DNA from: Chloroflexota bacterium
GTDB taxonomy: Bacteria > Chloroflexota > Anaerolineae > Promineifilales > Promineifilaceae
Length of the DNA: 36,723 bases
Assembly: GCA_018004935.1 (NCBI GenBank)
Contig: JAGNBF010000080.1
Location: forward strand, 1-36,723
Direction: 5' to 3'
Shown here: positions 4,080-24,137 of the stretch, in pieces
Numbering within the stretch: position 1 is the first letter of the stretch
How the letters are laid out: each line of letters begins with the position of its first letter
Translations under genes and position numbers: made by a program
The notes under the pieces: model-generated
What the model saw: the letters and a program-made list of their open reading frames with translations, nothing else
The model's database searches: none
What the model was told of the DNA's origin: nothing

Positions 4080-4116
4080 TAAGCTGAGGCACTATTGTCT
4101 TTTCGCTGTGTTTCTC

Positions 4117-4122
4117 AGGAGG
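4117..4122 (+). promoter_or_regulatory. Strong Shine-Dalgarno fixing the start of the giant gene
   Basis: AGGAGG lies 6 nt before the ATG at 4129. An in-frame ATG at 4108 lies upstream of this site and would add seven residues before an already complete signal peptide, so 4129 is preferred. Confidence 0.9.
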
Positions 4123-4128
4123 AAACCC

Positions 4129-7100: not shown

Positions 7101-10100
7101 GACCGCCTACAACGAACTGAACAATGCCGCAGACAATCTATTTGCAGGCATCGTTGTCGATCAGGCTACTAGCAATGCCAACGGCGTCTTAGCTGTCTCT
7201 GGCTCTTGTATCCGTTCCCTGCAAATTGAAGCCAGTGGCTTTGACTACATAATTGACGACCTGATCTTTACCCCCATGGTCGGGCCAGATTCAGACAGTG
7301 ATGGTCTGGTCGATCAATGCGACAACAGCACCCGTGAAACCAGCCAGACCTTACAACCGGGCGTTCCGGTTGAAGAAACGGCGCAGAGCAATCAGGATGC
7401 CCAATGGTTCCGCCTGGACGTAACCGTGCCGGGTTCCGTGATCAGCGCCACCCTGACCAGTGCCTTCGACTATGACCTGTACCTGTTTGCGCCACGCATT
7501 GATCAGGAATATGGGCAACTACGGGACATTGGCAATCTGGTCACAATCGCTCAACTGAGCGATATTGCCCAACTGAGTGACATCGCCCAACTAAGTGACA
7601 TCGCGCAACTGAGTGATATTGCCCGACTGTATGACCTGGCCCAACTGGCCGACATCGCCCAACTGAGCGACATTGCCCAACTGAGCGATATTGCCCAACT
7701 GAGCGATATTGCCCAACTGAGTGATATTGCCCAACTGAGTGATATTGCTCAACTAAGCGATATTGCCCAACTGAGTGATATTGCCCAACTAAGCGATATT
7801 GCCCAACTGAGCGACATTGCTCAACTAAGCGACATCGGTGAAGCCGGGGGTATCGAAACGTTGGCGGGCATCTCCGCCCATGCGTTGCCGCAAACCAGTG
7901 AACACATTGCGGTTAATGTACACGAGCTGGTGGGACCCTGGTTCCTGGTAGTAATGCCCCATGACGCGGCCGCAATCGGCCAGCCCTTCACCCTGAACAG
8001 CGAAGCCCTTGCCCCCAACGAACCCTTACCAATTGATACCAGTGTGGTGCCCACATTTGCGCCAGCCCCCGTCTCCCCGACGGTAGAAACCCTTATCCTG
8101 TTCAATCAATCCCGCCTGAACCAGTTCTATACCGGTACGGATACAGTAGCTTCAGCGGATCTGATTAACTGGCTCAATGTATTGGCGGCCGATTCTAACG
8201 TCAATGGCGAGGTCATTAACCTGGATAGTTATCCGGAAATCGTTGCCGCCTACCAGAATTGGGATGTCAATCAGGATAACCCCCAATCAGCTAATTATGT
8301 GGCGCGGACGATCAAGGCGTTGCTCTATAGTCTGTTACCGTCTTATCCCGACGTTAAATACATCGTAATTGTGGGTGGGGATCAGGTTATCCCGCAACGC
8401 CGGATTGTGGATATGACGTTGGTATCCAACGAGCGGACTTATTACTATTACGATAACCCGATGCTGGCCGCGGCCGCGAAGTATCGCTACTACCTCACAG
8501 ACGATTACTACGCCGCCAGCCTGCCCATTGCCGCCGATGGTCGCGAAATCTACATCCCGCAATATGGCCTGGGGCGTCTCGTTGAATCTCCCGGCGAAAT
8601 CGCCACCATGATTGACACCTTCCTGTCTGCACCTGTCCTAGCGCCACAAAATGCCCTCGTCACCGGCTACGACTTCCTGGTAGACCAGGCCAATGAGGTC
8701 AACACGACCCTGACAGGGCAAGGCGTGCCCGTAGATACGCTGATTGACAACGCCTGGACTGCTCAAGATTTCCGCGACCTGGCCTTTGATGCCACCGCCT
8801 ATGACCTGATCTCCCTCAACTCCCACTTCGATCACTTCCGCTTCTTCCCCAACGATCCCACCGATGTGATGGCCACGGAGTTCGACGAAACCAACAACTT
8901 CGACGGCCGACTCATCTTCTCCGTTGGGTGTCACGCCGGGCTAAACCTGTTCGATAACACCACCGTACTCGCCTTCACCGGAGCCGATTTTGCCCAGATA
9001 TTTGCCCGACATGGCGCAACCTTCATTGGTAACACTGGCTTTGGTTATGGAGATGGTGATCTGTTAGCCTATTCTGAACGGCTCTTGCTCAACTTTACCG
9101 AAAATCTGGGCTACAACCCCGTTCCGGGTCAAAACAGTACCCTGCCCACCACAGGTGAGGCATTGATGTTAGCCAAACAACGTTACCTGAACAGTCTGGG
9201 CAACGGTGGTCTGACCGTCTATGATGAGAAAGTGTTGGCCGAATTGACCCTGTATGGTCTGCCTATGCTCAAGGTCAACATGCCCACCCAGACCAGCGTG
9301 GTCCCTGGGGGCGACTCAGTCTTCACCACAACGCCCCCCATCGCCATCAGTGGCCCATCAGGAGCCAATGCCTGGGAACAGAACCTGACCTTCACCTATA
9401 CCCCTCACACCATCAGCGACCCGGTGCGGAACGGGACTTATTACACCGTCAATGGCGAAGAGAGTTTGCTGACCACTGGTAACCGGCCCATTCTGCCCCA
9501 GACCAGTGTGAACTTTAGCTCAGCCACAGAAATTGCTCGCGGGGTGCTGATGGAAGGTGGCTCCTTTACCGATAACTTCTACTTCGATCCGGTAATCACA
9601 CAGATTATCACTCAGGAAGTCAGCCTAAGTGGCGAAGGGGTCTACCTGGCGCAAACCCTGTACCCCCTTAGCCCGGTTAGCATCAACCGCTTCCTGACGG
9701 TGGACGGTGTTGCCCAACAGCGTCTGGTGGTGATGCCAGCGCAGTTCCAATCTACCGATGTCACCCTGGCCTCAACGGGTATCTTGCGCCTGTACGACAA
9801 TCTTGACCTGGTGGTTTACACCGCCTCCTTCACCGAGACGGACTTCATTTCACCTAATATCTGGGGCGTCCAGACGGTAGAAAATGCGGGAAACTTTGAA
9901 TTCACCGTTGACCTGAGTGACAACGATAGTGGGGTCCACCGTGTTCTGGTTCTCTACCGTGATATGACAGCCAATAGTTGGACGGGCGTTGATCTCACCT
10001 ACAATCCCAATAGCGGTCTCGCCACTGGTTCAGTCCCGGTCACTGGCGGCACCGTCGAATACTTTATCCAGGCCGTTGACCAGACAGGCAATGTCTCTCT

Positions 10101-12195
10101 CGTCCTGGATCATGGGGTTCCCTTCCGTGTCCTCTCTCCTGTGGCCGATACAGATAGTGACAGCATCAGTGATGCGTTTGACAACTGTCTATTGATAGCC
10201 AACAATGATCAGGCCGACTTCGATGGAGATGGTCTGGGTGATGCCTGTGACATCAACGCCGATAATGACCCGTTGGTGGATGTTTTTGATGCCTTCCTTC
10301 AGAACACCACTGAATGGTTTGACCTGGATAATGATGGGACAGGTGACAACGCGGACAGTGACGCGGACAACGACACGATTGCCGATGAGAATGACAACTG
10401 CGCTGTGGAGGCGAATCCGGATCAGGCGGATTTCGACAATGATGGTTTTGGGAATGTTTGTGATGTGGATGATGACAACGATACGATTCCGGATAGTGCT
10501 GATGCCTTCCCGTTTGATCCCTCACGGTGGTCAGACGTGGATGGGGATGGGGTAGATGATGCGGTTGACAATTGTGCCTTTGTGGCTAACCCCGATCAGG
10601 CTGATTCTAACAACAATGGGATTGGTGATGTTTGTGATAACACCACACCCATCAACCATCTGCCCGTATTAGCCCCTATTGGCGATCAGAGCACCGCGGC
10701 CGCGTCCCTCCTCACTTTCACCGCCCTTGCCACCGATATAGACACCCCCACCCAAATCCTGAGCTTCTACCTGACGGATGCGCCACTGGGGGCCACCATC
10801 ACCACCGAAGGTCTCTTCACCTGGACACCCACCCTGGCCCAAGGCCCGGCCAGCTACCCCTTTGCCGTCTGCGTCACCGATGGGGTTGACCCGGTTTGTG
10901 AAACCATTACCATTACCGTGACCGTCAATACGGCCCCGGTCTTGAACCCCATCGGCAACCAGAGTGTGAATGAAGAGAGTAGTCTGGAGTTCGCGGCCGC
11001 GGCCGCGGATAACGACATACCAGCTAATACCTTAACCTTCGCCCTGGCTGGCGTCGTGCCCGTAGGAGCAACCATCACCTCAAACGGTGTTTTCACCTGG
11101 ACACCCGCCGAAGGGCAAGGTCCCGATAGCTACCCCATCACCGTTCAGGTCTGCGACAATGGCATACCTATGTTATGCAGTGAAGAAACAATAACCGTCA
11201 TGGTTTATGAGGTGAATATCGCCCCCGTGGCTAATCCTCAAACTGTCACCACAACAGAAAACACCCCCATCAACATTACCTTGAGTGGTAGTGATATGGA
11301 TATTCCAGCCAATACCCTGACCTTCTCCGTTATGAACGGCCCCACAAATGGTACGCTGAGTGGCACTGCTCCCTACCTGGTCTACACACCAGCCACAGGC
11401 TACATAGGGAACGATAGCTTTACCTTCAGAATCAACGATGGCACGGCCAATTCACCCATAGTAACAGTCAATCTCATTGTCACAACAGCCCTCACCTGCA
11501 ATGACTTACCCGTCACGATCATGGGAACCAATGCTTCCGAAATCATCCACGGCACCAACGGCAACGACGTAATCCTGGGGTTAGGAGGAAATGATCTCAT
11601 TGATGGGGGTAATGGTAACGATGTCATCTGTGGGGGCAATGGCAATGATTTACTAGACGGCGGTAATGGGAGCGATACGCTGATTGGTAGTTACGGCAAT
11701 GACTTCTTATACGGGGGTAATGGCAATGACACCCTGGACGGTGGTAGCGGCTCCGATCTACTGGGTGGGGGTAATGGGGACGACACCCTCATTGGTGGAG
11801 CAGGACTTGACATACTCGGTGGCGAGAATGGCAACGATACACTCGATGCCGGGGATGGTGACGATTTCCTTGATGGGGGCACCGGCAACGACATCATGAC
11901 AGCAGGCCCAGGGGCGGACAAAATGTATGGGGAGAATGGCAATGACACCCTGGACGGTGGTGATGGCAATGACCTGATCATCGGAGCCAATGGCAACGAC
12001 ATCCTGATTGGTGGCCTGGGGGCTGATAAACTGTATGGTGAAAATGGCAATGACCAGTTCCATGCCAGTCAGGCCAATAGTTGTGCCAGCGATGGCGCGG
12101 TTGACATTGTTGACGGCGGTAGTGGCACGGATACAGCCAAAGGTGTTCTGGCTGGCCCAGACACTGTTACAGGCGTAGAAGTTAAAAACTGCTAA
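4129..12195 (+). CDS. Giant secreted multidomain protein with C25-type peptidase, beta-helix and RTX repeats (2688 aa)
   Basis: An N-terminal signal peptide (about 1-32) ends near PLHAATF. Modules in order: CSLREA domain (about 33-75, ECTLRAAIQE) and parallel beta-helix to about 430; second CSLREA (about 517-555, GCSLRAAIQEAN) and beta-helix, ending in a choice-of-anchor-Q-like block (about 844-904). Next comes a PPC-like domain interrupted by 16 IAQLSD hexapeptides (1140-1235), then a gingipain-type C25 peptidase. Its likely catalytic residues are His1566 (NSHFDHF) and Cys1601 (SVGCHAGLN). Thrombospondin-type-3 Asp-rich repeats follow (about 2007-2170), then two putative Ig-like domains, a cadherin/tandem-95-like domain, and RTX GGxGxDxxx repeats (about 2467-2645). 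The TSP3 and RTX parts should bind calcium outside the cell. There is no obvious C-terminal sorting tag after the RTX block. The substrate is unknown, and peptidase activity is inferred from the two motifs. Confidence 0.95.
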   Translation: MSSKFRLLLTPFLALTLLTFLLLNPWSRPLHAATFTVNSTGDAVDVNAGNGVCETVTAGECTLRAAIQEVNALGGTDTINFSIPGAGVHTITPATGLPTISGPIVMDGTTQPGASCAAWPPTLLIELDGSGTGGASGLDLSAFAADGSTIRGLVINRFGNGINGAYTSNTTIECNFIGTDPTGTIALGNTSYGIELQQNSDNNVIGGPAETQRNLISGNGTYQMGFPNFSNNTTSPSGNLIQNNYIGTDVTGLNALGGGTFAAVYFGGANTNTIRDNLISGNTGYGIYISGDATRPSGNHIIQGNRMGVDNTGVGALGNGSPGVPFGIVIASSQNDLIGGTGPGEANIIANSFRVGVGIYTVSGADPQNVSVRGNSIYNNGEVGIDLFGVLGQNANDALDADSGPNNLQNYPVLTAATIAGNLTIDYSLDSAIANSAYPVTVDFYEADSAGSGEGQVYLGSDTLVGPGSDSVNLGNAAALGIIPGDPIVATATDANGNTSEFSSVVVAVGGSLNIVVDKIADGTDDTPGDGICSSGAVEGCSLRAAIQEANASPGVDTITLPAGTYTLSLAGVGENAAATGDLDISDDIILNGAGAGTTIIDANGLDRAFQVLAGVNLDLADVTVRGGSASPGGAVLVEGDLQATQVSLHNNEAPTTSSAGQGGAIYVSTGGVATITFSQFNNNSAYFGGGAVANSSTLAISIQDSTFTSNSSVLGGGAIYLNGLSATLSNNTFVSNSSDVGGAIHSNATAVFINNSTFVNNSATNSGAVDAREGLITINNSTFSDNTASSIGATLGDQPGIGGDLQVRNSIIASGNTNNCGGSVVDLGNNVSWPAGNNCPGTQANPLLDTLANNGGATETVALLLGSPAIGAGNNATCEATDQRGVARPQGANCDSGAYEFTSIAIDFNGLLAENGVSAINTLHSNYNTEGVNFDFYIPNYLAGDSPYLGSDQLRVETHPAGADTLVNFAVAVQSVSVNFVNIGIAPAVLTAYNELNNAADNLFAGIVVDQATSNANGVLAVSGSCIRSLQIEASGFDYIIDDLIFTPMVGPDSDSDGLVDQCDNSTRETSQTLQPGVPVEETAQSNQDAQWFRLDVTVPGSVISATLTSAFDYDLYLFAPRIDQEYGQLRDIGNLVTIAQLSDIAQLSDIAQLSDIAQLSDIARLYDLAQLADIAQLSDIAQLSDIAQLSDIAQLSDIAQLSDIAQLSDIAQLSDIAQLSDIAQLSDIAQLSDIGEAGGIETLAGISAHALPQTSEHIAVNVHELVGPWFLVVMPHDAAAIGQPFTLNSEALAPNEPLPIDTSVVPTFAPAPVSPTVETLILFNQSRLNQFYTGTDTVASADLINWLNVLAADSNVNGEVINLDSYPEIVAAYQNWDVNQDNPQSANYVARTIKALLYSLLPSYPDVKYIVIVGGDQVIPQRRIVDMTLVSNERTYYYYDNPMLAAAAKYRYYLTDDYYAASLPIAADGREIYIPQYGLGRLVESPGEIATMIDTFLSAPVLAPQNALVTGYDFLVDQANEVNTTLTGQGVPVDTLIDNAWTAQDFRDLAFDATAYDLISLNSHFDHFRFFPNDPTDVMATEFDETNNFDGRLIFSVGCHAGLNLFDNTTVLAFTGADFAQIFARHGATFIGNTGFGYGDGDLLAYSERLLLNFTENLGYNPVPGQNSTLPTTGEALMLAKQRYLNSLGNGGLTVYDEKVLAELTLYGLPMLKVNMPTQTSVVPGGDSVFTTTPPIAISGPSGANAWEQNLTFTYTPHTISDPVRNGTYYTVNGEESLLTTGNRPILPQTSVNFSSATEIARGVLMEGGSFTDNFYFDPVITQIITQEVSLSGEGVYLAQTLYPLSPVSINRFLTVDGVAQQRLVVMPAQFQSTDVTLASTGILRLYDNLDLVVYTASFTETDFISPNIWGVQTVENAGNFEFTVDLSDNDSGVHRVLVLYRDMTANSWTGVDLTYNPNSGLATGSVPVTGGTVEYFIQAVDQTGNVSLVLDHGVPFRVLSPVADTDSDSISDAFDNCLLIANNDQADFDGDGLGDACDINADNDPLVDVFDAFLQNTTEWFDLDNDGTGDNADSDADNDTIADENDNCAVEANPDQADFDNDGFGNVCDVDDDNDTIPDSADAFPFDPSRWSDVDGDGVDDAVDNCAFVANPDQADSNNNGIGDVCDNTTPINHLPVLAPIGDQSTAAASLLTFTALATDIDTPTQILSFYLTDAPLGATITTEGLFTWTPTLAQGPASYPFAVCVTDGVDPVCETITITVTVNTAPVLNPIGNQSVNEESSLEFAAAAADNDIPANTLTFALAGVVPVGATITSNGVFTWTPAEGQGPDSYPITVQVCDNGIPMLCSEETITVMVYEVNIAPVANPQTVTTTENTPINITLSGSDMDIPANTLTFSVMNGPTNGTLSGTAPYLVYTPATGYIGNDSFTFRINDGTANSPIVTVNLIVTTALTCNDLPVTIMGTNASEIIHGTNGNDVILGLGGNDLIDGGNGNDVICGGNGNDLLDGGNGSDTLIGSYGNDFLYGGNGNDTLDGGSGSDLLGGGNGDDTLIGGAGLDILGGENGNDTLDAGDGDDFLDGGTGNDIMTAGPGADKMYGENGNDTLDGGDGNDLIIGANGNDILIGGLGADKLYGENGNDQFHASQANSCASDGAVDIVDGGSGTDTAKGVLAGPDTVTGVEVKNC
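7546..7833 (+). repeat. 16 in-frame 18-bp repeats encoding IAQLSD
   Basis: Exactly 288 bp make sixteen hexapeptide units. Units 1-4 and 7-16 read IAQLSD; units 5 and 6 are IARLYD and LAQLAD. Third positions vary (ATT/ATC, GCC/GCT/GCG, CTG/CTA, AGC/AGT, GAT/GAC) while the peptide is constant, which points to selection on the protein sequence. The block lies between YDLYLFAPR and the WFLVVMPHD strand typical of the second half of a PPC domain. Confidence 0.97.
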
Positions 12196-12535: not shown

Positions 12536-15500
12536 ATGGAAACTGCAACTGATTACATCCCCATAGACCGCCGTCTGGCCCTGGCCGAAGGGCGCAATTT
12601 GCCGGAACGGACGCATGGCTCTGCCCTCTTTGCTGATATTTCTGGCTTTACCCCCCTCACCGAAATGTTGGCCCGGCAACTCGGCCCCCGACGGGGCGCA
12701 GAAGAGTTAACCCGGCAGTTAAATCGTGTGTATGATGCCCTGATCAATGATTTACACCGTTATGGGGGGAGTGTCATTGGCTTTAGTGGTGATGCCATAA
12801 CTTGCTGGTTAGATGGCGATGATGGGCAAAAGGGCGCGGCCGCGGCCTTCGCCATGCAGACAGCCATGCAACAATTTACCCATATCCGTTTCGGCACAGA
12901 AACAGTTTCCCTCGCCCTCAAAATAGCCGTCGTTGTTGGCCCTGTGCGCCGGTTTGTCATTGGCGACCCCAACTACCTCCTTATGGATGTCCTCGCCGGG
13001 GCCACCCTCAGCCGCCTGGCCGGGGCCGAACATCAGGCCAACAAAGGCGACATCATCCTGGATGAACAAATCGCTACCACCCTGGGCAACAACGTACACA
13101 TTCAAGAATGGCGCACCGATCATGAAAGTCATGAACAATATGCCGTAGTGACAGACCTTCAGGCAATCGTTCCTGAAAAACCCTGGCCGCCTCTCCCCCC
13201 CACCAGTCTACCCGACGATCAGGCCCGTGCTTGGTTATTGCCAACCGTTTACCGCCGTTTACAGGCGGCTAAGGGGGCATTCCTGGCCGAACTACGTTCA
13301 TCCTCAGCCCTGTTTATGCGTTTTGGGGGCATTGATTACGACGATGACGAAGAAGCACCCCAAAAACTAGACACCTTCATCAAACAAGTAGAGAAAATAT
13401 TAGCCCGTTACGAAGGCAGTTTGTTACAACTCACCATTGGCGATAAAGGGAGTTATCTCTACGCCTCAATGGGTGCCCCCATTGCCCACGAAGACAATGT
13501 TGACCGCAATTTACGTGTGGCCTGGGAATTACAAACCCTACCCGATCAATTACCTTTTATCGAACCAATGCAAATTGGTATCACCTATGGGCGCATGTAT
13601 GCAGGTGCCTACGGGGGGCAAGCCCGGCGCACCTATGGCGTGTTAGGAGATGCCGTGAATCTCTCCGCCCGCCTGATGCAAGCCGCCAAACCCGGTCAAA
13701 TCCTCGTCAGCGAATCAGCCTTCAGCAAAGCCAGTGACATCTTCCTATGGGAGACACTCCCAGCCATTCAGGTTAAGGGCAAAAGCGAACCCGTTGTACT
13801 CAACCGGTTGGTGGGCCTTAAAGCCAATCGCGCCCTGCAATCTCTGGATACTCTTTACCCCCACCCCCCCATTGGCCGAGAAGAAATTCTGACCCTCTTG
13901 AACAAAAAACTGGACGTGATGACGCAAGGCACTGGGCAAGTTATCCGGTTAGTCGGTGAAGCAGGGATGGGCAAAACTCATGTCATGGCCGAATTCAGTC
14001 GGATGGCTCGCACCAGAGGGTTTCGTCAGGCAATTGGCACCTGTCACAACCTCACCCGAAACAGCTTGTACCAACCCTGGCGCAATATTTTTTATGCCTT
14101 ACTCGACCTGGATGATGCCAACGAAATCAACGCCCTCAGCCAATTAACAACTTATATCGAGCAGGTACACCCACAGTGGCAATTACGTTTACCGTTGTTA
14201 GGTGATTTACTCGGCTTGCCGATCCCTGACAATCCCACCACCACCGCTTTTACCAGTGATCTACGCCAAAAAGCCCTTTTCTCCCTGTGCGTGGAAATGC
14301 TCCAAACCTGGACCCAGGATAAACCCCTCATTCTGGTTCTAGAAAATTCCCATTGGATGGATGAAGCCTCGGAAGCGTTGACTCAGGTTGTGGCACACCA
14401 GGTATTAGGAACCTCGTCGTTGATGATCCTGCTTTTGCACCGACCAGAGTTAGTAGGCAGTTCCTTACATTTGCCCGAATTAATCCGGCTCCCCTATTTC
14501 ACAGCCCTGGTATTGGATGAGATGCGTGACAACGACATGAACGCCTTCTTGACCCATCAATTAGGGCATCAGGCTTCCTCTCTACTTCTCGCCATCGTAC
14601 AAACCCTTGCGCAGGGGAATCCATTTTTTGCTCACGAATTGGTAAATGCTATGCGCCAGGGCAAGAAAATCGTGTTTGAGGATGCTGAGTGGGAAATTGC
14701 CCCCGAATTGGTGCGACGATTACAAAGTGCCGGTTTTGTGACCCAAGTAGAAGGGAAATGGCGGTTGAAACCCAATGTAGATCTGTCTACCGTAAAATTG
14801 GGTTTGCCCGATTCCATTCATGACCTGGTTCTCGCCCATTTAGATCGCCTGCCAGAGAGCCATAAATTGACCTTAAAGGTCAGCAGTATTTTGGGTTATT
14901 ACATTGATTTAGGGCTGGTTAGTGATGTACACCCAGAGAAGAAAGGTGTTGATCAGATTGAAGCGGAAGCGGCCTATATGGAGGCGGAAGAGGTTGTGCA
15001 CCAGGAAACCCCAGAGCGGAAGATTTATGCCTTTCGGCAACAAACAACGCAAGAGGTGGCTTATCAAACTCTGCTCCATGCCCAACGACAACAACTCCAT
15101 CGGGCGGTAGCCGAAACGTTGGTTGAACAACAACCAGAGGCAACGGTAGCCATTGCACATCATGCGTTTCTGGCCGAGTTATGGCCGGTAGCGCTTGCCT
15201 ATAACTTGTTGGCGGGTGAACGGGCCAAGAAGTTATATGCCAACCAGCAGGCGATTGCTTTTATGCAGAAGGCGTTACAAAGTGCCCAAACCTTGCCTGA
15301 TATAGAGACGGCTGAACCGTTAAAACAGATTCATTTGGCATTGGGCGAGTTATTGATAACGACGGGGCAATATGATACGGCGCATCAACATCTGGGCGTG
15401 GCGTTAGCATTGGCTCAGGCGCAACAAGATTGGGAGGCCGAGGCTACTTGTTACCGTTGGTATGGGCGTTCACACGAGCGGCGTGGGGAATACAGTCTGG

Positions 15501-16558
15501 CTTTAAGTTGGCTAAATAAGGGGTCGGCGATTCTGCATGGGCATGTTTCTAGCCAAGAGGCGGAAATATTGCTCATTGCGGGGTTGGTCAATTATCGTTT
15601 GGGGCATTTTGATGAGGCTTTGCAGTTATGTCAGAAGAGCCTGGTTGTGGGTGAGGTTTTAGATGATGCCGCCATTCGTGCTCGTACTTATAACTTGATG
15701 GGCATTGTGGAATTGCGCCAGGATAGCAAAGTGGCTATTGAGCGGTTTCAGCAATCGTTGGCGCAATATGAACAGTTACAGAATATCTATGGGCAAGCTA
15801 TTTCTCACAATCTCATTGCCAATGGACAATTTGCTCAGGGGCAGTGGATAAACGCGGAGGCTCATTATCGTCGCTCGTTGGATTTATTTACCCAGATTGG
15901 TGAGCTTTATAGTCAGGTGTTGGGGAACAATAATCTGGGGGGCATTGCCCTGAAGCAGGGGCGGTTGGATGCGGCTCTGGGGTATTATCAGCGGGCGATA
16001 CGGGTGTTGGAGCAAACGGGTGGATCGTTGTGGGTTTTGGGGGCGCTTCATCTGAATATGGGGCATGTTCATATTCGTATGCATGGGCTAGACAAGGCCG
16101 CGAGTGAACTAAAATTGGCGCAGGCTTATTTTGAGCAGGTGCAGTTGCGGGATTTGTTACCGGAGTTGTATGGTTTGTTGGCGGAGTTGGCGTGGTTGCA
16201 AGGGGATCTGGCCGCGGCCGCGAACCAGGGCCAACAAGCCGTAGACCTGGCGCGAGAACTTTCTATGCCCCGTGAAGAAGGGCATAACTTGCGAGTTCTG
16301 GGGGAAATTACCCGCGCCAGGGCACAGTTAGCGCAGGCAGAACAGCTTTTTCAGGAAAGTTATACGATACTCCACCAGGCGGGTGATGAGTATGAAAGTG
16401 GGCGCACTCAGCTTTCATTGGCCCAGTTGTATGGCGCTCAACAAAAATATGAACAAGCTGAAGCATTGTTGGCGTTATGTGAGCCTGTTTTTGAACGGCT
16501 GGACGCTCAGTTAGATCTGGCTTTGGTACAGTCAATCCGGCAATCGCTCATACCATAA
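12536..16558 (+). CDS. Soluble-adenylyl-cyclase-like protein: tandem class III cyclase domains, AAA ATPase, TPR repeats (1340 aa)
   Basis: Predicted to make cAMP (possibly cGMP) from the nucleoside triphosphate in the cytoplasm. The first cyclase domain (about 25-190) has metal-binding Asp34 (FADISGF) and Asp86 (FSGDAIT) but lacks the Asn-x3-Arg pair. The second (about 250-425) has Asn375 and Arg379 (GDAVNLSAR), but the first metal Asp position is not Asp (LFMRFGG). The two halves therefore look like one composite active site, as in ADCY10-type soluble cyclases. Next come an ATPase with Walker A GEAGMGKT (about 475) and an LVLENSHWMDE Walker B-like motif, and TPR repeats from about 880 to the end. 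No convincing Shine-Dalgarno precedes the ATG. The CNB-domain gene starts 24 bp downstream, so the two are probably co-transcribed. Confidence 0.93.
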   Translation: METATDYIPIDRRLALAEGRNLPERTHGSALFADISGFTPLTEMLARQLGPRRGAEELTRQLNRVYDALINDLHRYGGSVIGFSGDAITCWLDGDDGQKGAAAAFAMQTAMQQFTHIRFGTETVSLALKIAVVVGPVRRFVIGDPNYLLMDVLAGATLSRLAGAEHQANKGDIILDEQIATTLGNNVHIQEWRTDHESHEQYAVVTDLQAIVPEKPWPPLPPTSLPDDQARAWLLPTVYRRLQAAKGAFLAELRSSSALFMRFGGIDYDDDEEAPQKLDTFIKQVEKILARYEGSLLQLTIGDKGSYLYASMGAPIAHEDNVDRNLRVAWELQTLPDQLPFIEPMQIGITYGRMYAGAYGGQARRTYGVLGDAVNLSARLMQAAKPGQILVSESAFSKASDIFLWETLPAIQVKGKSEPVVLNRLVGLKANRALQSLDTLYPHPPIGREEILTLLNKKLDVMTQGTGQVIRLVGEAGMGKTHVMAEFSRMARTRGFRQAIGTCHNLTRNSLYQPWRNIFYALLDLDDANEINALSQLTTYIEQVHPQWQLRLPLLGDLLGLPIPDNPTTTAFTSDLRQKALFSLCVEMLQTWTQDKPLILVLENSHWMDEASEALTQVVAHQVLGTSSLMILLLHRPELVGSSLHLPELIRLPYFTALVLDEMRDNDMNAFLTHQLGHQASSLLLAIVQTLAQGNPFFAHELVNAMRQGKKIVFEDAEWEIAPELVRRLQSAGFVTQVEGKWRLKPNVDLSTVKLGLPDSIHDLVLAHLDRLPESHKLTLKVSSILGYYIDLGLVSDVHPEKKGVDQIEAEAAYMEAEEVVHQETPERKIYAFRQQTTQEVAYQTLLHAQRQQLHRAVAETLVEQQPEATVAIAHHAFLAELWPVALAYNLLAGERAKKLYANQQAIAFMQKALQSAQTLPDIETAEPLKQIHLALGELLITTGQYDTAHQHLGVALALAQAQQDWEAEATCYRWYGRSHERRGEYSLALSWLNKGSAILHGHVSSQEAEILLIAGLVNYRLGHFDEALQLCQKSLVVGEVLDDAAIRARTYNLMGIVELRQDSKVAIERFQQSLAQYEQLQNIYGQAISHNLIANGQFAQGQWINAEAHYRRSLDLFTQIGELYSQVLGNNNLGGIALKQGRLDAALGYYQRAIRVLEQTGGSLWVLGALHLNMGHVHIRMHGLDKAASELKLAQAYFEQVQLRDLLPELYGLLAELAWLQGDLAAAANQGQQAVDLARELSMPREEGHNLRVLGEITRARAQLAQAEQLFQESYTILHQAGDEYESGRTQLSLAQLYGAQQKYEQAEALLALCEPVFERLDAQLDLALVQSIRQSLIP

Positions 16559-16582: not shown

Positions 16583-17068
16583 ATGAGTTTTCAATCATTC
16601 TTTAATTACCCTTCACATTCTACGAGTAATCAGCCCGAGGATTTGCTCTTTTTGCCCTTTTGGAACGAAACCCAGTGGGGCAAACTGCTTGGCTACACGG
16701 CCAATCTCCGCTTTCGTCTTGGTGATACCATCATCAAATTAGGTGATACGGATAGCGCTATTTACATCATTACGGAGGGGCAGGTGGAAATCCTGGTACC
16801 GTACCAGGGAGGGCAACAGGTACGGCGCACACAACTCCGGGAGGCGGGTTCAGTTATTGGCGAACAGGCGTTTATTGACGGTAAACCCCGTTCTGCCACG
16901 GTGCGTGCAGTCGCTGATGGCTCAATGGTACGCCTTAATCGTAATGCGTTTGAAGTATTTGCCGCCCGCGAACCTGAATTAGCCCGTGATGTTTTATTCG
17001 ATTTAGCACGTCTTCTCTCGATTAAACTCCGTCAAGCTAATCAGTTTATCTCCAATTGGGTTAAATGA
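16583..17068 (+). CDS. Stand-alone cyclic-nucleotide-binding (CNB/CAP-fold) protein, 161 aa
   Basis: A single CNB domain of about 130 residues with no DNA-binding helix-turn-helix. The phosphate-binding cassette is intact: VIGEQAFIDGKPRSATV, with Glu94 for the ribose and Arg103 for the cyclic phosphate. A GAGAGAG Shine-Dalgarno-like stretch lies just before the ATG. It follows the cyclase by 24 bp and precedes the redox membrane protein by 137 bp, so a cAMP sensor acting on a neighbouring protein is the simplest reading. Without an output domain it must act through a partner. Confidence 0.92.
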   Translation: MSFQSFFNYPSHSTSNQPEDLLFLPFWNETQWGKLLGYTANLRFRLGDTIIKLGDTDSAIYIITEGQVEILVPYQGGQQVRRTQLREAGSVIGEQAFIDGKPRSATVRAVADGSMVRLNRNAFEVFAAREPELARDVLFDLARLLSIKLRQANQFISNWVK

Positions 17069-17072
17069 GATT

Positions 17073-17190
17073 GGTATATTGGTATATTGGTATATTGGTG
17101 TATTAGTGTATTGGTTGATGATAAATTGGTGCATTGGCGTACTGAATAATAACCAATACACCCATACACTAATCCACTAATCCACCAATC
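17073..17190. repeat. Imperfect ATTGGTGTATTGG repeat block with inverted halves
   Basis: The left half is tandem TATATTGG/TGTATTGG-type octamers (about 17073-17115). The right half is the inverted form, AACCAATACACC with ACTAATCC units (about 17150-17190), and a poly-C run follows. A second copy of this element type lies at 29876-29942. The block fills most of the gap before the redox gene, so it may set the leader structure of that transcript. Confidence 0.8.
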
Positions 17191-17205
17191 CCCCCCCCCT
17201 TGCCT

Positions 17206-19845
17206 ATGGAATCTTTGCCTGTTTTTCCTAACTATTTGCAATTGCGTGAACGGTCGCGGGTGTCGCCTAAGGTGTGGCAGGTGACACGAACCGGGAGTGT
17301 GGTGGTGGCTTTGGCGCTGGTGGTGACGTTGTGGGTGGAACCAGCGTTGGGGTTGAAGTTGTTTTGGGGGGTGCTGGTTCCGGTGTTGCCGGTGTTATTT
17401 CTGGTAGCCCCTGGTCTATGGCGAAATATATGCCCGCTCGCGGCCGCAAACCAGACGCCACGCCTCTTCAAATTTACCCGCGCCCTCACCCTACCAGCCT
17501 GGATGCAGGAGTATAGCTACGTCATCGGTATCAGCCTGTTTTTTGTGCTGGCCTCCAGCCGCAAATGGTTGTTTAACCAGAGTGGCCCCGCTACCGCCCT
17601 ACTGATCATGGGCCTGATCGCGGCCGCGTTCTTAGGGGGCATCTTCTTCAAAGGCAAAAGTGGCTGGTGTAGTAGCATCTGCCCTTTACTCCCCGTGCAA
17701 CGGATGTACAACCAGACCCCATTCATCCTCATCGGCAACGCACATTGTGCGCCGTGTGTTGGTTGCACCAAAAACTGTTACGACTTTAACCCCGGTGTGG
17801 CAAACCTGGCCGATATGTACGACAACGATCGGTACTACACAGGCTACCGCCAATTCTTCATCGGCGCCTTCCCCGGCTTTATCCTGGCCTTTTTTCTCAC
17901 ACCCAACCCACCAGAAATTTCGATTTTTGCGTTGTACCTGGCCTTTTTCAGCTATATGGCCGTCAGTTTGGGGTCGTTTTTGACCCTACGAACCTTTGTG
18001 AAGGTAACGGATACAAAACTGATTACGCTGTACGGCGCGGCCGCGCTCAACCTCTTCTACTGGTTTGTCATCCCGGTCTGGCTCAACAACGTATTTGGTT
18101 CGGCCCCACTGATGGTTATCTGGCCGGTGCGGGTATTCCTGCTGGGCATCACCCTGGCCTGGATTGTGCAAACCTACCGCAAAGAACCTAAGTTTGTGGC
18201 CCAGTTAATGCCCCATCAAGAGACAAAAGTATCGGGCGCGGCCGCACGTGCCCTTAAACAGGCCATCAGCCAGGAAGGCCGTCATGAGGTCACTTACCTG
18301 CCCGACGAGCTACGCCTCATGGTCGAAGAAGGGCGCACCCTTCTCGAAACCGCCGAACAAAACGATTTACGTATCGAGCCGGGTTGTCGCATGGGGGTTT
18401 GTGGTGCCGATCCCATCGTCATTGTGCAAGGCATGGATAACCTCTCCCATCAGCGCGATGATGAACACTCTACCCTGGATAGATTGGGTTTAGCCAATGG
18501 CAATGTACGGCTGGCCTGCATGGCCCGCGTCAATGGGCCTGTCTCTTTTTCTCTGGATTTATCTCTGGTCAAACAAGTCAATGCCGAATTAACGACCCAA
18601 CAGTTTGATGAAAACATCCGGCAGGTGGTTATTGTGGGCAATGGTATTGCCGGTGTCACCGCCGCCGACCATATTCGTCGCCGCCACCCGGCCTGTGAGA
18701 TTCACCTCATCGGCAAGGAAAGCCATCATCTGTATAACCGAATGGCTATCACCCGTCTCATTTATGGACGTTCCGCCATGAATGGGCTGTATCTACAACC
18801 CGATCAATGGTACGAAGAGAAAAAGATTACTCCCTGGCTCAATACGATGGTCTCTAAGGTGGATAGGAGTACCCGGCAGGTAAAACTGGCAACCGGGGAA
18901 ACCCTGCCCTACGACCGGCTCATTCTGGCGACCGGGAGCCGTAGTTTTGTGCCTACACTTCCTGGTTTTGGCCTGCCGGGAACCTATGTCTTGCGCGAAG
19001 CGGAAGATGCGATGCAGATTCGGGCGTTTGTGCAAAAACACCAGACACAGCACGCCGTGGTGGCTGGAGGTGGCCTGTTAGGGTTAGAAGCCGCTTATGC
19101 CCTGTACAAATTAGGGTTGAAAGTGACTGTGTTAGAACGAGGCCCGTGGCTATTGCGGCGACAGTTGGATGAACGCGGGGCCGACTTTTTGCACCAATAT
19201 TTGTTGGGGTTAGGGTTGGATATTGTGTTTGAAGCCGAGTGCGCGGCCGCGAACGGCACCGACCGCCTGGAACAAATCACGCTTAAAGATGGCCGTACCC
19301 TCAATAGTGATTTGTTACTCATTTGTGTGGGTATCAGTCCTAACATAGAACTGGCCCAAACGCTAGGCCTCACAACCAAACGCGGCATTGTGGTAGATGA
19401 TGGGATGCACACCGATGATCCCGACATTTTTGCCGTGGGTGATGCCTGCGAACATCAAGGGCAAGTGCCGGGGTTATGGCCCGTGGCTGTAGAGCAAGCC
19501 AAAATCGCCGCCATCAATGCCGTCGGCGGAAATGAATGTTACACAGGCACAATTCCCGTCACTCATCTGAAAGTGGTAGGAGTAGAATTGACATCCATTG
19601 GACAAATTGAAGCAAATTCCCCAGAGGATGTGACGATTGTGCAAGAAGATGTAGAATTGCACCATTATCGCAAACTCGTCATTGTCAAAGGTAAGGCAGT
19701 AGGGGCGATTCTTCTCGGTTATCCTTTGGATGCCTCAGTTGTCACCACAATTATTAAGGATGGGGTTGACATCGCACCTTATCTCGAAACACTGCAAGCC
19801 GGTCAGTGGGATCAATTACATCATCTGGGCATATCTTCTCAATAA
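17206..19845 (+). CDS. Three-module membrane redox protein: NapH/polyferredoxin-like, 2Fe-2S domain, FAD/NAD oxidoreductase (879 aa)
   Basis: The N-terminal part (about 1-330) is a multi-pass membrane region with polyferredoxin-like cysteines: NICPL near 74, WCSSICP near 152, and CAPCVGCTKNC near 180, a CxxCxxCxxxC 4Fe-4S motif. Next is a plant-type 2Fe-2S domain (about 345-455) with Cys394, Cys399 and Cys438, but Asp402 where the third Cys of CxxxxCxxC is expected (CRMGVCGAD). The C-terminal half is a NirB/NADH-rubredoxin-reductase-like flavoprotein, with FAD GNGIAG near 475, NAD GGGLLG near 617 and AVGDACEH near 742. NAD(P)H electrons could pass through FAD and 2Fe-2S to the membrane clusters. 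The acceptor is unknown. I chose the ATG at 17206; a TTG two codons upstream is also possible. No Shine-Dalgarno is seen. Confidence 0.9.
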   Translation: MESLPVFPNYLQLRERSRVSPKVWQVTRTGSVVVALALVVTLWVEPALGLKLFWGVLVPVLPVLFLVAPGLWRNICPLAAANQTPRLFKFTRALTLPAWMQEYSYVIGISLFFVLASSRKWLFNQSGPATALLIMGLIAAAFLGGIFFKGKSGWCSSICPLLPVQRMYNQTPFILIGNAHCAPCVGCTKNCYDFNPGVANLADMYDNDRYYTGYRQFFIGAFPGFILAFFLTPNPPEISIFALYLAFFSYMAVSLGSFLTLRTFVKVTDTKLITLYGAAALNLFYWFVIPVWLNNVFGSAPLMVIWPVRVFLLGITLAWIVQTYRKEPKFVAQLMPHQETKVSGAAARALKQAISQEGRHEVTYLPDELRLMVEEGRTLLETAEQNDLRIEPGCRMGVCGADPIVIVQGMDNLSHQRDDEHSTLDRLGLANGNVRLACMARVNGPVSFSLDLSLVKQVNAELTTQQFDENIRQVVIVGNGIAGVTAADHIRRRHPACEIHLIGKESHHLYNRMAITRLIYGRSAMNGLYLQPDQWYEEKKITPWLNTMVSKVDRSTRQVKLATGETLPYDRLILATGSRSFVPTLPGFGLPGTYVLREAEDAMQIRAFVQKHQTQHAVVAGGGLLGLEAAYALYKLGLKVTVLERGPWLLRRQLDERGADFLHQYLLGLGLDIVFEAECAAANGTDRLEQITLKDGRTLNSDLLLICVGISPNIELAQTLGLTTKRGIVVDDGMHTDDPDIFAVGDACEHQGQVPGLWPVAVEQAKIAAINAVGGNECYTGTIPVTHLKVVGVELTSIGQIEANSPEDVTIVQEDVELHHYRKLVIVKGKAVGAILLGYPLDASVVTTIIKDGVDIAPYLETLQAGQWDQLHHLGISSQ

Positions 19846-20811: not shown

Positions 20812-21246
20812 ATGATCACCATCGAAAAAGTCGCCTTTCTGCGCACCGTACCCCTATTTGCCAGCATTCCTGATTATGTACTGGCCTCAGTGGCCCAAAT
20901 TGCCGAGGAAGTAGAATTACCTGCCGGGGAAATGTTTATCCGTGAAGGGGATGTGGAAGATTGTATGTACCTGGTTGTTGCGGGGCAGGTACGAGTGCAC
21001 CGGCAAGAGAAAACAATCATCACCCTGGGGGCTGGCAAAAGCGTGGGCGAACTGGCCGTATTGGATCCAGAACCGCGCGCGGCCGCGGTTTCCACCCTCG
21101 AACCGACCCACTTATTCCGTATCGCCAAACCCCCATTCGATGAAGTCATGGCCGACCGCCCCGAAATTGCCCAGGGCGTCATCCGCGCTTTATGTGAACG
21201 CGTGCGCGAACAAGGCCGACTGATGACCCAAAGAAAGGGCGAATAA
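20812..21246 (+). CDS. Stand-alone cyclic-nucleotide-binding (CNB/CAP-fold) protein, 144 aa
   Basis: A second single-domain CNB protein with no helix-turn-helix. The phosphate-binding cassette reads SVGELAVLDPEPRAAAV, with Glu80 and Arg89 as the expected ligand contacts. An AGGA ribosome-binding site lies 7 nt before the ATG. It sits 125 bp upstream of the NTT/HEAT transporter gene. In some free-living bacteria NTT-like transporters, HEAT repeats and a CNB domain occur in one polypeptide, so this gene may be the separately encoded sensor for the next protein. Confidence 0.9.
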   Translation: MITIEKVAFLRTVPLFASIPDYVLASVAQIAEEVELPAGEMFIREGDVEDCMYLVVAGQVRVHRQEKTIITLGAGKSVGELAVLDPEPRAAAVSTLEPTHLFRIAKPPFDEVMADRPEIAQGVIRALCERVREQGRLMTQRKGE

Positions 21247-21265: not shown

Positions 21266-21370
21266 CATTCACCATTCCCCACTCACCATTCCCCACTCCC
21301 CATTCACCATTCACCATTCACCATTCACCATTCACCATTCACCATTCACCATTCCCCATTCCCCATTGCC
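21266..21370. repeat. Array of fifteen 7-bp units abutting a start codon
   Basis: Fifteen consecutive heptamers (consensus CATTCAC, variants CATTCCC, CACTCAC, CACTCCC and final CATTGCC) run from 21266 to 21370. Seven identical CATTCAC units lie at 21301-21349. The array ends one base before the ATG at 21372. It leaves no room for a Shine-Dalgarno site and could vary in length by slippage. Confidence 0.95.
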
Positions 21371-21371
21371 T

Positions 21372-24137
21372 ATGACCACCTTCACCCCACTCCTTCCCGA
21401 TATTGGTCAGCCTGTGCGCACCCGTTTGGTGCTATTAATTGGGCAAGCGTTTGCCCTGGGACTGACTCTGGCCTTCCTGATTGTCATTGGTAATGCACTT
21501 TTTTTGTCTGACTACGGCGCGGCCGCGTTGCCCTACACCTACATAACCGTCGCCATTACCGGAACACTCCTCGCCTATGGTTTTGCCGCCTTACAAAGCC
21601 ACTATACCATCTCCCAACTCACCATCACCACCATCACCGGACTGGTAATCTTTTATCTACTCTGCTGGCTGGGATTAACTGCCATCCCTGTGCGCGGCAT
21701 CTCCTTCGCTCTGGTCGTCTCCTTTAGCCTATTGTTACAACTGGGATTTGTTTTCCTGGGGGGGCAAGCCGGACGATTATTCGATGTGCGCCAGATTCGG
21801 CAACTTTTCTCCTTTATTGTGGCCGGGTTTGTGATGGGATTTATTGTGGGAGCGTTAATTGTGCCCCCCCTGGTAATGTGGTTGGGCAGTACCGCCAACG
21901 CCTCCATTGGGCTGGTAGGCACATCATTACTCTGGCTCATTCTGTTAATCATCACCAGCAACCGTTATCAGCGAGAACTGAGTCAAATACAGGATCGCGG
22001 CCGCGCTCCATCCCGGCAATCTCTACCCCAGCTCCTAAAAAATCGCTTTGTCCTTTTCATTTTCCTCTACCAGATGCTGGCTATCACCGTCAACCAACTC
22101 ACCGACTTCATCATGATGACTCAGGTGGGAGCACGGTTCACAACCAGCGAAAGCACGGCTCAATTTTTCAGCCGCTTTACCGCCATCCTCAATGGCACCG
22201 ATCTCCTCTTCACCACCCTTATCGCCGGTTTTTTTCTCAGCCGGTTTGGACTAAATGCCGGTCTGTTAGCGAATCCCATCGTAACCACTCTCATTCTCCT
22301 GGCGATGGGCCTCAGCTACATTATTCTGGGGCCATCCAGTACCCTCTTCTTTCTCCTGGCCGTAGGCATCCGCATTACACTTATCACCCTCACCGATGGG
22401 ACCACCCGAACCTCTACCAACACCACCTATCAGGCCTTGTCCGCCCAAGATCGTAGCCCCGCCCAGGCAGGTGTCGAGGGAATCGGTGGCCCGGTGGCCC
22501 TGGGCATTACCGGGGTATTATTGCTCATTTTCAACAGAATAGAGGGGCTTAACAGTGCCCACCTCATCTTCCTGACTCTGGCATTGGCCGGGGGCTGGGC
22601 AATCATGGGGTTCATGGTCTATCGCCAATACGCCAGCACCCTGCTCAATACCTTGCGTCGCCGTGCCCTGGGCGAGGTTGAGCTATCTCTGGCCGATAGC
22701 TCCAGCATGGCGGTTGTCGAGCGGCTGGTGAAAAGTGAACGCCTCTCTGATATCCAGTTAGCTCTGGACGTGCTTGACCAATCGGATCGTCCGGCATTGG
22801 AACGGTGCCTGATGCGTCTGTTGAACCATACCGAAGAAGTGGTTCAGATAGAAGCATTGCGTCGCCTGGAAATCCGCCCCATCCCGATTGCCCGGTCGCT
22901 TATTGAATCACGTTGGCAAACACCTACCACATCAGCCGAGGTAAAAGGAGTTGCTCTGCGGGTTTTGTGTGCCTATGAGGGGGGAGAAGCCGTCGAGTGG
23001 GTTGCGCCTCTTATGGATGCCCCCACGCCGGAGATTCGTTTTAATGCCCTGGTGGGTTTACTGCGTTATGGAGGTATTGCCGGAGCGCTGTTAGCCGGGG
23101 AGCGGCTGATGACGTTGACTCATTCACCGCTGATGCAGGAACGTATGTTTGCCGCTCAGGTGATGGAAGCGGTGGGACAGATTAATTTTTATCAGCCGCT
23201 TTTGGCGTTGCTAGAAGATAAAGAACCCCAGGTGCGGCAAGCGGCTTTACTCGCGGCCGCGCACTGTCCTCATATCCATTTATTGCCCCTGGTAACTCAG
23301 GGTTTGAACGAACCAAACACCCGGTCTGCGGCCGCGACCGCCCTTCTCGCTTATGGTACGGCTGTATTACCCCTGGTAGAACAGGCTTTGCAGGGAACAA
23401 CACCCCTGGGTTCACGGCAACTCATCCGCCTGGTGCGCGTCTGTGGACAGATAAAAGGGGAATCCACGATCAACCTGCTTAAACAATTCCTCAACCATCC
23501 TGATCGGGAAATACGAGGCCAGATTCTCATCGCCTTGAACCAATGCGCTTATCACGCCACCCCTGAAGATATACCCCTGGTGCTAAAAACAATGCACCTC
23601 GAAGCCACCCAAGCCGCCTATGCCCTCACCGTGCAACAAGAAATGGGGAATGAGGAAGCCTTTGCCCCCTTGCAACGTGCGCTCGATGAAGAATGGCGCC
23701 ACGCCCAACAGCACCTGTTTTATCTGCTGGCCTGCCTGTATGATAGTCGGGCACTGCTCCGTGCCGGGGAGCAACTGGGCCGTGGGAGTGAGGGGGAAAA
23801 GGCGTTGGCGCTGGAATTGTTGGATGTCACCTTAAATTCAGAGCAGAAAGGCATTCTCTTTCCCCTGGTGCGGCCGCAACTCAGCCTCCATCAGCGGCAA
23901 CAACAACTCACCCAGCGGTTCCCCATCTCCTCACAAAACCGCGAAACCCGGTTACATGAATTGATAATGGGCGCAGAAACTAACCCGGTATTACCCTGGA
24001 CACGTGCCTGTGCCGTGTACGCGGCCGCGTTAGCCACCCTCCCCTCTCTCATCCCCCCCATTCAACACGCCCAAACATCCCCCGATACCACCCTTCAGGA
24101 AACCACCGCCTGGGCCTTAACCCAACTCACCGCCTGA
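21372..24137 (+). CDS. NTT/MFS-like membrane transporter fused to HEAT repeats, 921 aa
   Basis: The first 430 or so residues are highly hydrophobic with about 11-12 membrane segments, in the style of ATP/ADP-translocase (NTT) or related MFS proteins. The remainder is a soluble helical-repeat region with HEAT/PBS-lyase-like units (for example REIRGQILIALNQC, EPQVRQAALLAAAHC, PEIRFNALVGLLRYGG). The transported solute is unknown; nucleotide transport is a possibility from family resemblance only. I chose the ATG at 21372; a TTG two codons earlier is inside the repeat array. There is no Shine-Dalgarno. It follows the CNB gene, so cyclic-nucleotide control through the HEAT region is a reasonable hypothesis. 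Six GCGGCCGC octamers occur, three in the HEAT part. Confidence 0.85.
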   Translation: MTTFTPLLPDIGQPVRTRLVLLIGQAFALGLTLAFLIVIGNALFLSDYGAAALPYTYITVAITGTLLAYGFAALQSHYTISQLTITTITGLVIFYLLCWLGLTAIPVRGISFALVVSFSLLLQLGFVFLGGQAGRLFDVRQIRQLFSFIVAGFVMGFIVGALIVPPLVMWLGSTANASIGLVGTSLLWLILLIITSNRYQRELSQIQDRGRAPSRQSLPQLLKNRFVLFIFLYQMLAITVNQLTDFIMMTQVGARFTTSESTAQFFSRFTAILNGTDLLFTTLIAGFFLSRFGLNAGLLANPIVTTLILLAMGLSYIILGPSSTLFFLLAVGIRITLITLTDGTTRTSTNTTYQALSAQDRSPAQAGVEGIGGPVALGITGVLLLIFNRIEGLNSAHLIFLTLALAGGWAIMGFMVYRQYASTLLNTLRRRALGEVELSLADSSSMAVVERLVKSERLSDIQLALDVLDQSDRPALERCLMRLLNHTEEVVQIEALRRLEIRPIPIARSLIESRWQTPTTSAEVKGVALRVLCAYEGGEAVEWVAPLMDAPTPEIRFNALVGLLRYGGIAGALLAGERLMTLTHSPLMQERMFAAQVMEAVGQINFYQPLLALLEDKEPQVRQAALLAAAHCPHIHLLPLVTQGLNEPNTRSAAATALLAYGTAVLPLVEQALQGTTPLGSRQLIRLVRVCGQIKGESTINLLKQFLNHPDREIRGQILIALNQCAYHATPEDIPLVLKTMHLEATQAAYALTVQQEMGNEEAFAPLQRALDEEWRHAQQHLFYLLACLYDSRALLRAGEQLGRGSEGEKALALELLDVTLNSEQKGILFPLVRPQLSLHQRQQQLTQRFPISSQNRETRLHELIMGAETNPVLPWTRACAVYAAALATLPSLIPPIQHAQTSPDTTLQETTAWALTQLTA

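Follow-up and report, generated by a model that had tools for sequence, protein, structure and literature searches.

A rare single-chain fusion of a NapH/MauN-like membrane domain, a [2Fe-2S] domain and a ferredoxin-reductase domain, conserved beside a cyclic-nucleotide-binding protein in Bacteria

Proteins of the NapH/MauN family, together with NosR, CcoG/RdxA and RdhC, are multi-helix membrane proteins that carry CxxxCP and CxxCxxCxxxC motifs on the inner face of the membrane. The accessible parts of two papers give the NapH/MauN pattern as four membrane helices, two CX3CP motifs and two 4Fe-4S motifs (PMC5928378, PMC5449189); the first of them lists the four helices and the two CX3CP motifs as common to PceC, NosR and NapH and describes NapH as a proposed menaquinol dehydrogenase. 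In the accessible part of the second, a Tat/Sec-inserted NapH-NapG fusion polyferredoxin, reported from Chloroflexota among others, joins a NapH-type part to a further redox domain, which is NapG-like, periplasmic and Tat-exported (PMC5449189). Among soluble reductases, those of the TodA, BphA4 and putidaredoxin reductase type act on separate [2Fe-2S] partners, and a related N-terminal domain in NirB is fused to sirohaem domains. A membrane-anchored chain with 2Fe-2S and flavin adenine dinucleotide (FAD) that oxidizes reduced nicotinamide adenine dinucleotide (NADH) is found in NqrF, subunit F of Na+-NQR; however, its FAD fold is of the ferredoxin-NADP+ reductase type, a NapH-like domain is lacking and the protein belongs to an ion pump. 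The subject of this work is a gene in a 36,723-nucleotide stretch of a Chloroflexota bacterium (assembly GCA_018004935.1, contig JAGNBF010000080.1; the whole stretch is called the window), which unites a NapH/MauN-like domain, a cytoplasmic [2Fe-2S] domain and a TodA-like reductase in one polypeptide, and of which the homologues are mostly found next to a gene for a cyclic-nucleotide-binding protein.

The fusion gene lies on the forward strand at 17206-19845 and encodes 879 amino acids from an in-frame ATG; the longest frame, 17200-19845, starts with a TTG, encodes 881 residues and is uninterrupted in the open reading frame listing. The ATG is the likelier start, while residue numbers given here count from the TTG and are thus two higher than in ATG numbering. 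Pfam finds, in this order, Fer4_5 (residues 136-171, E 0.002, under its cut-off), Fer2 (PF00111, residues 368-444, E 3.9e-6, 27.1 bits against a gathering cut-off of 21), Pyr_redox_2 (residues 475-767, E 2.9e-61) and Rubredoxin_C (residues 786-841), and the AlphaFold2 model of the protein has eight long membrane helices with the soluble domains after them. Among the scoring Pfam and NCBIfam models, no whole-protein model covers this domain order. A literature search on the architecture, the membrane family and the pairing with cyclic nucleotides found, in the accessible parts of the texts, no description of the chain or of the pair; the modules are known, while their conserved combination is undescribed, and both its 2Fe-2S site and its partner are unusual.

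When the GTDB species were scanned for motifs with a two-row alignment, 34 loci with homologues emerged, a lower bound; an earlier scan of those species, queried with the single window protein, found none. By record title the loci (cited below by L numbers, and genomes by G numbers) are 17 actinobacterial, 10 proteobacterial, five from Chloroflexota and two from Verrucomicrobiota. Most hold the whole fusion, at 40-63% identity, and wherever the contig permits the three parts are consecutive in one frame. An earlier note on this DNA, made from the letters alone, had read membrane 4Fe-4S, 2Fe-2S and FAD/NAD(P)H reductase parts in a single chain, and this is borne out by the Pfam order, the motifs and the homologues. 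The same note had named a frameshift or misassembly joining separate genes as what could undo this reading; nothing speaks for such an artefact, which is excluded because many independent assemblies from four phyla keep this order and length, in one frame each, and its probability is practically nil.

The fusion is an old, rare family. The window's own genome has one complete copy, six further matches being to the reductase part only, and among 59 related genomes a second full fusion occurs in G022 alone, at 56% identity. Of 396 genomes sampled across the class, only the window's genome, G022 and G338 have a well-aligned N-terminal half; a wider search of 296 genomes of the actinobacterial phylum found the fusion in the centre genome only, and 264 plasmid records match the reductase part only, none covering 80% of the query. 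In the tree the Chloroflexota rows require at least three changes and the proteobacterial rows four, therefore transfer between phyla, or wrong binning of metagenome-assembled genomes, is likely; such assemblies supply several other rows besides most of those from Chloroflexota and Verrucomicrobiota, and the host in their titles may be wrong. Some G+C-rich loci have overlapping frames, and gene calls are rough there. Two odd members were noticed: a decayed remnant in genome G001 (L017), which lacks the N-terminal half as well as some 200 residues further inside and adjoins a methyltransferase-like frame, and the fusion at L046:7572-11096, with a C-terminal extension of about 150 residues that has no relative in the other loci.

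The membrane domain (17266-18207, forward strand, residues 23-336) is predicted by AlphaFold2, with a predicted local distance difference test score of 88 and a predicted template modelling score of 0.88 for the domain alone, to form eight helices at residues 23-46, 48-69, 100-125, 129-149, 211-233, 242-266, 271-299 and 304-336. Between helices 2 and 3 a lone cysteine, C78, stands in a WRNxCP motif (17431-17433, forward strand), and a further stretch (17668-17778, forward strand) holds C157xxxC161P and the 4Fe-4S motif C183xxC186xxC189xxxC193. All seven cysteines are invariant in the 37 rows of the alignment. This count includes two truncated rows and one duplicate, since L008 and L056 are a single contig of 9,338 bases with the same protein; the conservation of C189 and C193 is partly pre-selected, the CTKNCYD stretch having served as search pattern. 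Near-copies are present among the rows (L032/L033 and L049/L051), and the truncated L057 and L060 were left out of alignment A2. Lysine and arginine make up 10.8% of the loops on the side of C78, C157-193 and the C-terminus as against 2.7% on the opposite side, and the inner loops are the richer ones in all 33 rows compared; the model supplied the helix limits but had no part in the charge count. Charge bias and predicted helices together therefore place the N- and C-termini, and all iron-sulfur parts, on the cytoplasmic side.

The likeness of this domain to NapH/MauN is visible in the multi-helix layout and in the motifs of the inner face, and the NCBIfam NapH models NF007013 and TIGR02163 give weak matches, at E <= 0.1, to 29 and 27 of 33 members (best E 1.7e-6 and 8.7e-6), the window member itself being without a match at that threshold. 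The domain differs in several respects: there are eight helices where NapH has four, a single canonical 4Fe-4S motif where NapH has two, a first CP motif that lacks its first cysteine, and a 2Fe-2S domain and FAD reductase fused behind. For this reason the term polyferredoxin, used in the earlier note, does not suit the protein, which has a single canonical 4Fe-4S motif besides one CxxxCP and a lone CP. R121 (helix 3), Y246 (helix 6) and Y287 (helix 7) are invariant, while R30, R217 and R324 (helices 1, 5 and 8) are buried and at least 90% conserved; these six residues could form a quinone site.

The plant-type 2Fe-2S domain (18271-18573, forward strand) has C396, C401, D404 and C440 as its ligand set, that is three cysteines and one aspartate and not the four-cysteine set. 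The four residues are found in all 35 rows that reach the site, the divergent L063 included, always with aspartate at the third ligand place. By sequence the fold resembles Fer2 proteins, the closest solved relative being Ferredoxin-4 (9i2a, E 8.9e-14), which however has cysteine at the third place; the C-x4-C-x2-D spacing, with a later fourth cysteine, is identical to that of Escherichia coli SdhB, a protein with other clusters and another partner, in which the aspartate is a ligand of a working 2Fe-2S cluster.

The remainder of the chain (18622-19842, forward strand, residues 475-881) is a ferredoxin-reductase domain of the TodA/BphA4 type, for which NADH to [2Fe-2S] activity is predicted. 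It has a GNGIAG motif for FAD at 480-485 and a GGGLLG motif for the pyridine nucleotide at 623-628, and its fold matches toluene dioxygenase reductase (4emi) with Z 36.3 and a root-mean-square deviation of 2.1 over 395 residues (Foldseek E 5.8e-33). E646, which follows strand 2 of the nucleotide-binding fold, is more than 90% conserved. In BphA4 a glutamate at the like position favors NADH, and by analogy E646 would favor NADH over NADPH. The best NCBIfam match, NirB (TIGR02374), covers profile positions 1-389 of 794 only and scores 300.5 bits, far under the equivalog cut-off of 578.35; the nitrite reductase half is unmatched. Fold and NADH motifs are those of TodA, BphA4, putidaredoxin reductase and the NirB N-terminal domain, and the difference is that here the [2Fe-2S] partner is fused in front and the whole is anchored to the membrane.

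From these parts, the fusion may be an NADH dehydrogenase that is bound to the membrane, works on its cytoplasmic side as one chain and is under the control of a cyclic nucleotide, a prediction held tentatively and rated somewhat short of probable. NADH would reduce FAD in the TodA/BphA4-like domain; FAD would give up electrons one at a time to the Cys3Asp [2Fe-2S] domain fused to it, and from there they would pass to the [4Fe-4S] cluster and the CP motifs at the inner face of the NapH-like eight-helix domain, which most likely exchanges electrons with the quinone pool. The cyclic-nucleotide-binding protein, usually co-translated, would be a regulatory subunit devoted to the enzyme, switching it by cyclic adenosine monophosphate (cAMP), or its guanosine counterpart (cGMP), supplied by a cyclase; in the window a soluble-adenylyl-cyclase-like protein is encoded just upstream. 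The sequences show the order of the domains, the cofactor motifs, the topology, the conservation and the pairing of the genes, whereas the direction of the electrons, quinone as acceptor, the complex with the partner and its control of the enzyme are predicted from them. The electron path from NAD(P)H to the membrane clusters proposed in the earlier note holds in so far as the parts stand in one chain, in a sensible order and with a reductase fold that suits 2Fe-2S partners, while to call it complete overstated the case.

Quinone as the contact is favored by a relative in the genome of L058, which besides the fusion encodes a stand-alone membrane-domain protein of 375 amino acids (profile E 2.1e-59), 30% identical over 273 residues and with all seven cysteines kept. 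Its gene belongs to an operon of the type II DMSO-reductase family and lies downstream of the subunit genes, those for molybdopterin alpha, iron-sulfur beta and haem b gamma subunits and for a delta-type chaperone; therefore the membrane module can apparently work apart from NADH, with a molybdenum enzyme of respiratory type. Electrons could also run the other way, from quinol through the membrane clusters to NAD+ or a soluble ferredoxin, as the available text on NapH-type modules proposes that they oxidize menaquinol (PMC5928378). Such a flow would be uphill to NAD+, and neither a coupling site nor an extra ion-translocating subunit is seen, so that this direction appears very improbable.

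A further possibility is that NADH drives the reduction of one particular acceptor instead of quinone, such as an oxygenase, a redox regulator (the Rsx/SoxR case) or, as with CcoG, a copper or other metal site under maturation. The FAD domain is indeed closest to the reductases of ring-hydroxylating dioxygenases, and proteins of the NosR/NapH/CcoG type often serve one partner enzyme. However, when the neighbors of the 34 loci were clustered, no cluster besides the fusion and the cyclic-nucleotide-binding family occurred in more than four loci, and no conserved acceptor gene was found, which makes a dedicated acceptor unlikely. Pfam on 20 chosen neighbors gave assorted enzymes and other proteins, e.g. 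a glycosidase, an aminotransferase, a tRNA synthetase, helicases and transporters; in the window and among the scanned neighbors there were no napG/napA or mau genes, but cyclic-nucleotide-binding, cyclase, kinase/FHA and unrelated genes instead. The earlier note named no acceptor and no acceptor gene has emerged here, but the NapH/MauN likeness points to quinone.

The conserved partner of the fusion is the cyclic-nucleotide-binding protein. In the window it has 161 amino acids (16583-17068, forward strand; Pfam cNMP_binding E 3.1e-16) and a stretch like a phosphate-binding cassette, GEQAFIDGKPRSA, and Pfam finds no helix-turn-helix or other DNA-binding domain in it. Of the 34 loci, 28 have a gene of this family directly beside the fusion; in L030 it lies downstream and in the other 27 upstream (the L029 partner is a fragment only). 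Of 19 pairs measured, eight overlap by 1 to 11 bp if the nominal start codons hold. An N-terminal FFxY signature is common to the partners, and the cassette pattern GE...RSA is present in the window partner and in most of 27 aligned partners. Six loci have no such neighbor, of which L037 and L056 offer less than 300 bases upstream and L038, L042, L043 and L048 have room. Given the adjacency and the overlaps, the partner may bind the enzyme and place it under the control of a cyclic nucleotide. The spacer between the two genes in the window (17069-17199) forms a long hairpin (-43.3 kcal/mol, z -3.7), which is one copy of a genome repeat with 109 matches; orthologous pairs are without such a spacer and are mostly touching. 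A second pair with a cyclic-nucleotide theme is found further on, a short cyclic-nucleotide-binding protein at 20812-21246 before a 923-amino-acid protein at 21366-24137, which by eye has N-terminal hydrophobic helices and also contains HEAT repeats.

Upstream of the partner, and ending 24 bp before it, lies a gene for a class III nucleotide cyclase of 1340 amino acids (12536-16558, forward strand; Pfam Guanylate_cyc, AAA_16, TPR_12). It consists of two cyclase halves, followed by an AAA_16 NTPase and TPR repeats, and its best PDB relative is human ADCY10 (4oya, E 3.5e-23), to which the two halves align one after the other; with the layout and the best match of a soluble adenylyl cyclase of the ADCY10 type, it is likely the source of the cyclic nucleotide. 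Cyclase genes occur in the flanks of the window, L037, L039, L049, L051, L054, L059: in Nocardioides (L054) a cyclase with the layout of the window protein follows the fusion, while the others are FHA-cyclases (L037, L049, L051), a receiver-cyclase (L039) and a CHASE2-cyclase (L059). In L028 a TPR protein locally similar to the window cyclase precedes the cyclic-nucleotide-binding gene. With L047, which shares its genome with L027, left out, the flanks of the remaining 33 loci hold four cyclases where 0.49 were expected (Poisson P 0.0016), counting the clear class III proteins of L039, L054 and L059 with L037 (E 1.4e-6) as the fourth; the weaker domains of L049 (E 3.1e-5) and L051 were not counted, just as genome-wide counts miss weak ones. 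The cyclic-nucleotide sensor from which the earlier note suggested regulated electron transfer is real, and the pairing in 28 of 34 loci and the nearby cyclases make the tie to cyclic-nucleotide signaling far firmer than a single neighbor could; the control itself is a prediction.

Other signaling genes are also found at these loci. An FHA protein stands beside the fusion in seven loci of one actinobacterial branch (L037, L038, L042, L043, L048, L049 and L051), four of which lack the cyclic-nucleotide-binding gene, and Ser/Thr kinases are near six loci (L030, L038, L042, L043, L048 and L052). After the divergent Chloroflexota fusion L095 two kinase genes follow, the nearer with an FHA domain. 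These genes bring in the main rival of the dehydrogenase reading, in which the fusion is a redox sensor: the balance of NADH and quinone would set the state of the chain, which would be reported to the cyclic-nucleotide-binding partner, cyclases, Ser/Thr kinases and FHA proteins, the partner acting as scaffold or output. Signaling genes do dominate the neighborhood, and a core respiratory enzyme would not be expected to be as rare and as patchily distributed as this family. Conversely, reductase and cluster motifs are fully retained, as in an enzyme that turns over; the seven FHA loci belong to a single branch (support 89/65) and maybe to one event; and kinases are common in Actinobacteria, so kinase neighbors alone are not leaned on. 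A sensor is therefore considered rather unlikely, although the present data do not separate it from an enzyme.

Several observations weigh against a cyclic-nucleotide-controlled dehydrogenase. The fusion has one canonical 4Fe-4S motif and one and a half CP motifs, as compared with two and two in NapH/NosR in the accessible descriptions. The membrane domain has no relative, by sequence or by fold, among the solved structures searched, and because of this the quinone site is a guess; Foldseek with the membrane domain alone gave no match at E <= 0.001 (best VIA Z 3.8), an absence that shows little. On the regulatory side, the actinobacterial loci L038, L042, L043 and L048 have the space but not the gene for the partner, the partners of L030, L046, L047, L052 and L060 are without the arginine or the glutamate of the cassette, and the nearby cyclases are of several unrelated types, many fusions having none in reach. 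Control by cyclic nucleotides is thus not universal, because the partner is missing in four loci and cassette residues are lost in several.

Two other features of the window were also noticed. It has 48 copies of the palindrome GCGGCCGC as against 0.81 expected (e.g. at 17440, 17620, 18037, 18238 and 19243), and the 8-Mb genome G000 has 12,040, the reversed control giving 2; 38 related genomes have between 27 and 1,959 copies. A highly iterated palindrome, HIP1, is known from cyanobacteria according to the available part of PMC4390886, and GCGGCCGC looks like an element of this kind, apparently peculiar to the window's genome. At 4108-12195 a protein of 2695 residues is encoded which by eye looks exported and has about twenty near-identical 'IAQLSD' units, with thrombospondin-type-3-like aspartate repeats and RTX-like GGxGxD repeats.

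The sure tie of the fusion is to a cyclic-nucleotide-binding protein and not to a metabolic pathway, and its invariant aspartate in a plant-type ferredoxin domain offers a handy natural case of Cys3Asp coordination. A bolder form of the dehydrogenase reading, which must be regarded as speculative, is that a second messenger, produced by a soluble-adenylyl-cyclase-like enzyme, gates the NADH dehydrogenase directly through the co-translated partner subunit, with neither kinase nor transcription factor, and that one actinobacterial branch has moved to Ser/Thr-kinase/FHA control. If gating is true, the two-gene pair would be sufficient to test it; and if a cyclic nucleotide does gate the fusion, bacteria would steer the entry of electrons at the membrane directly by a second messenger.

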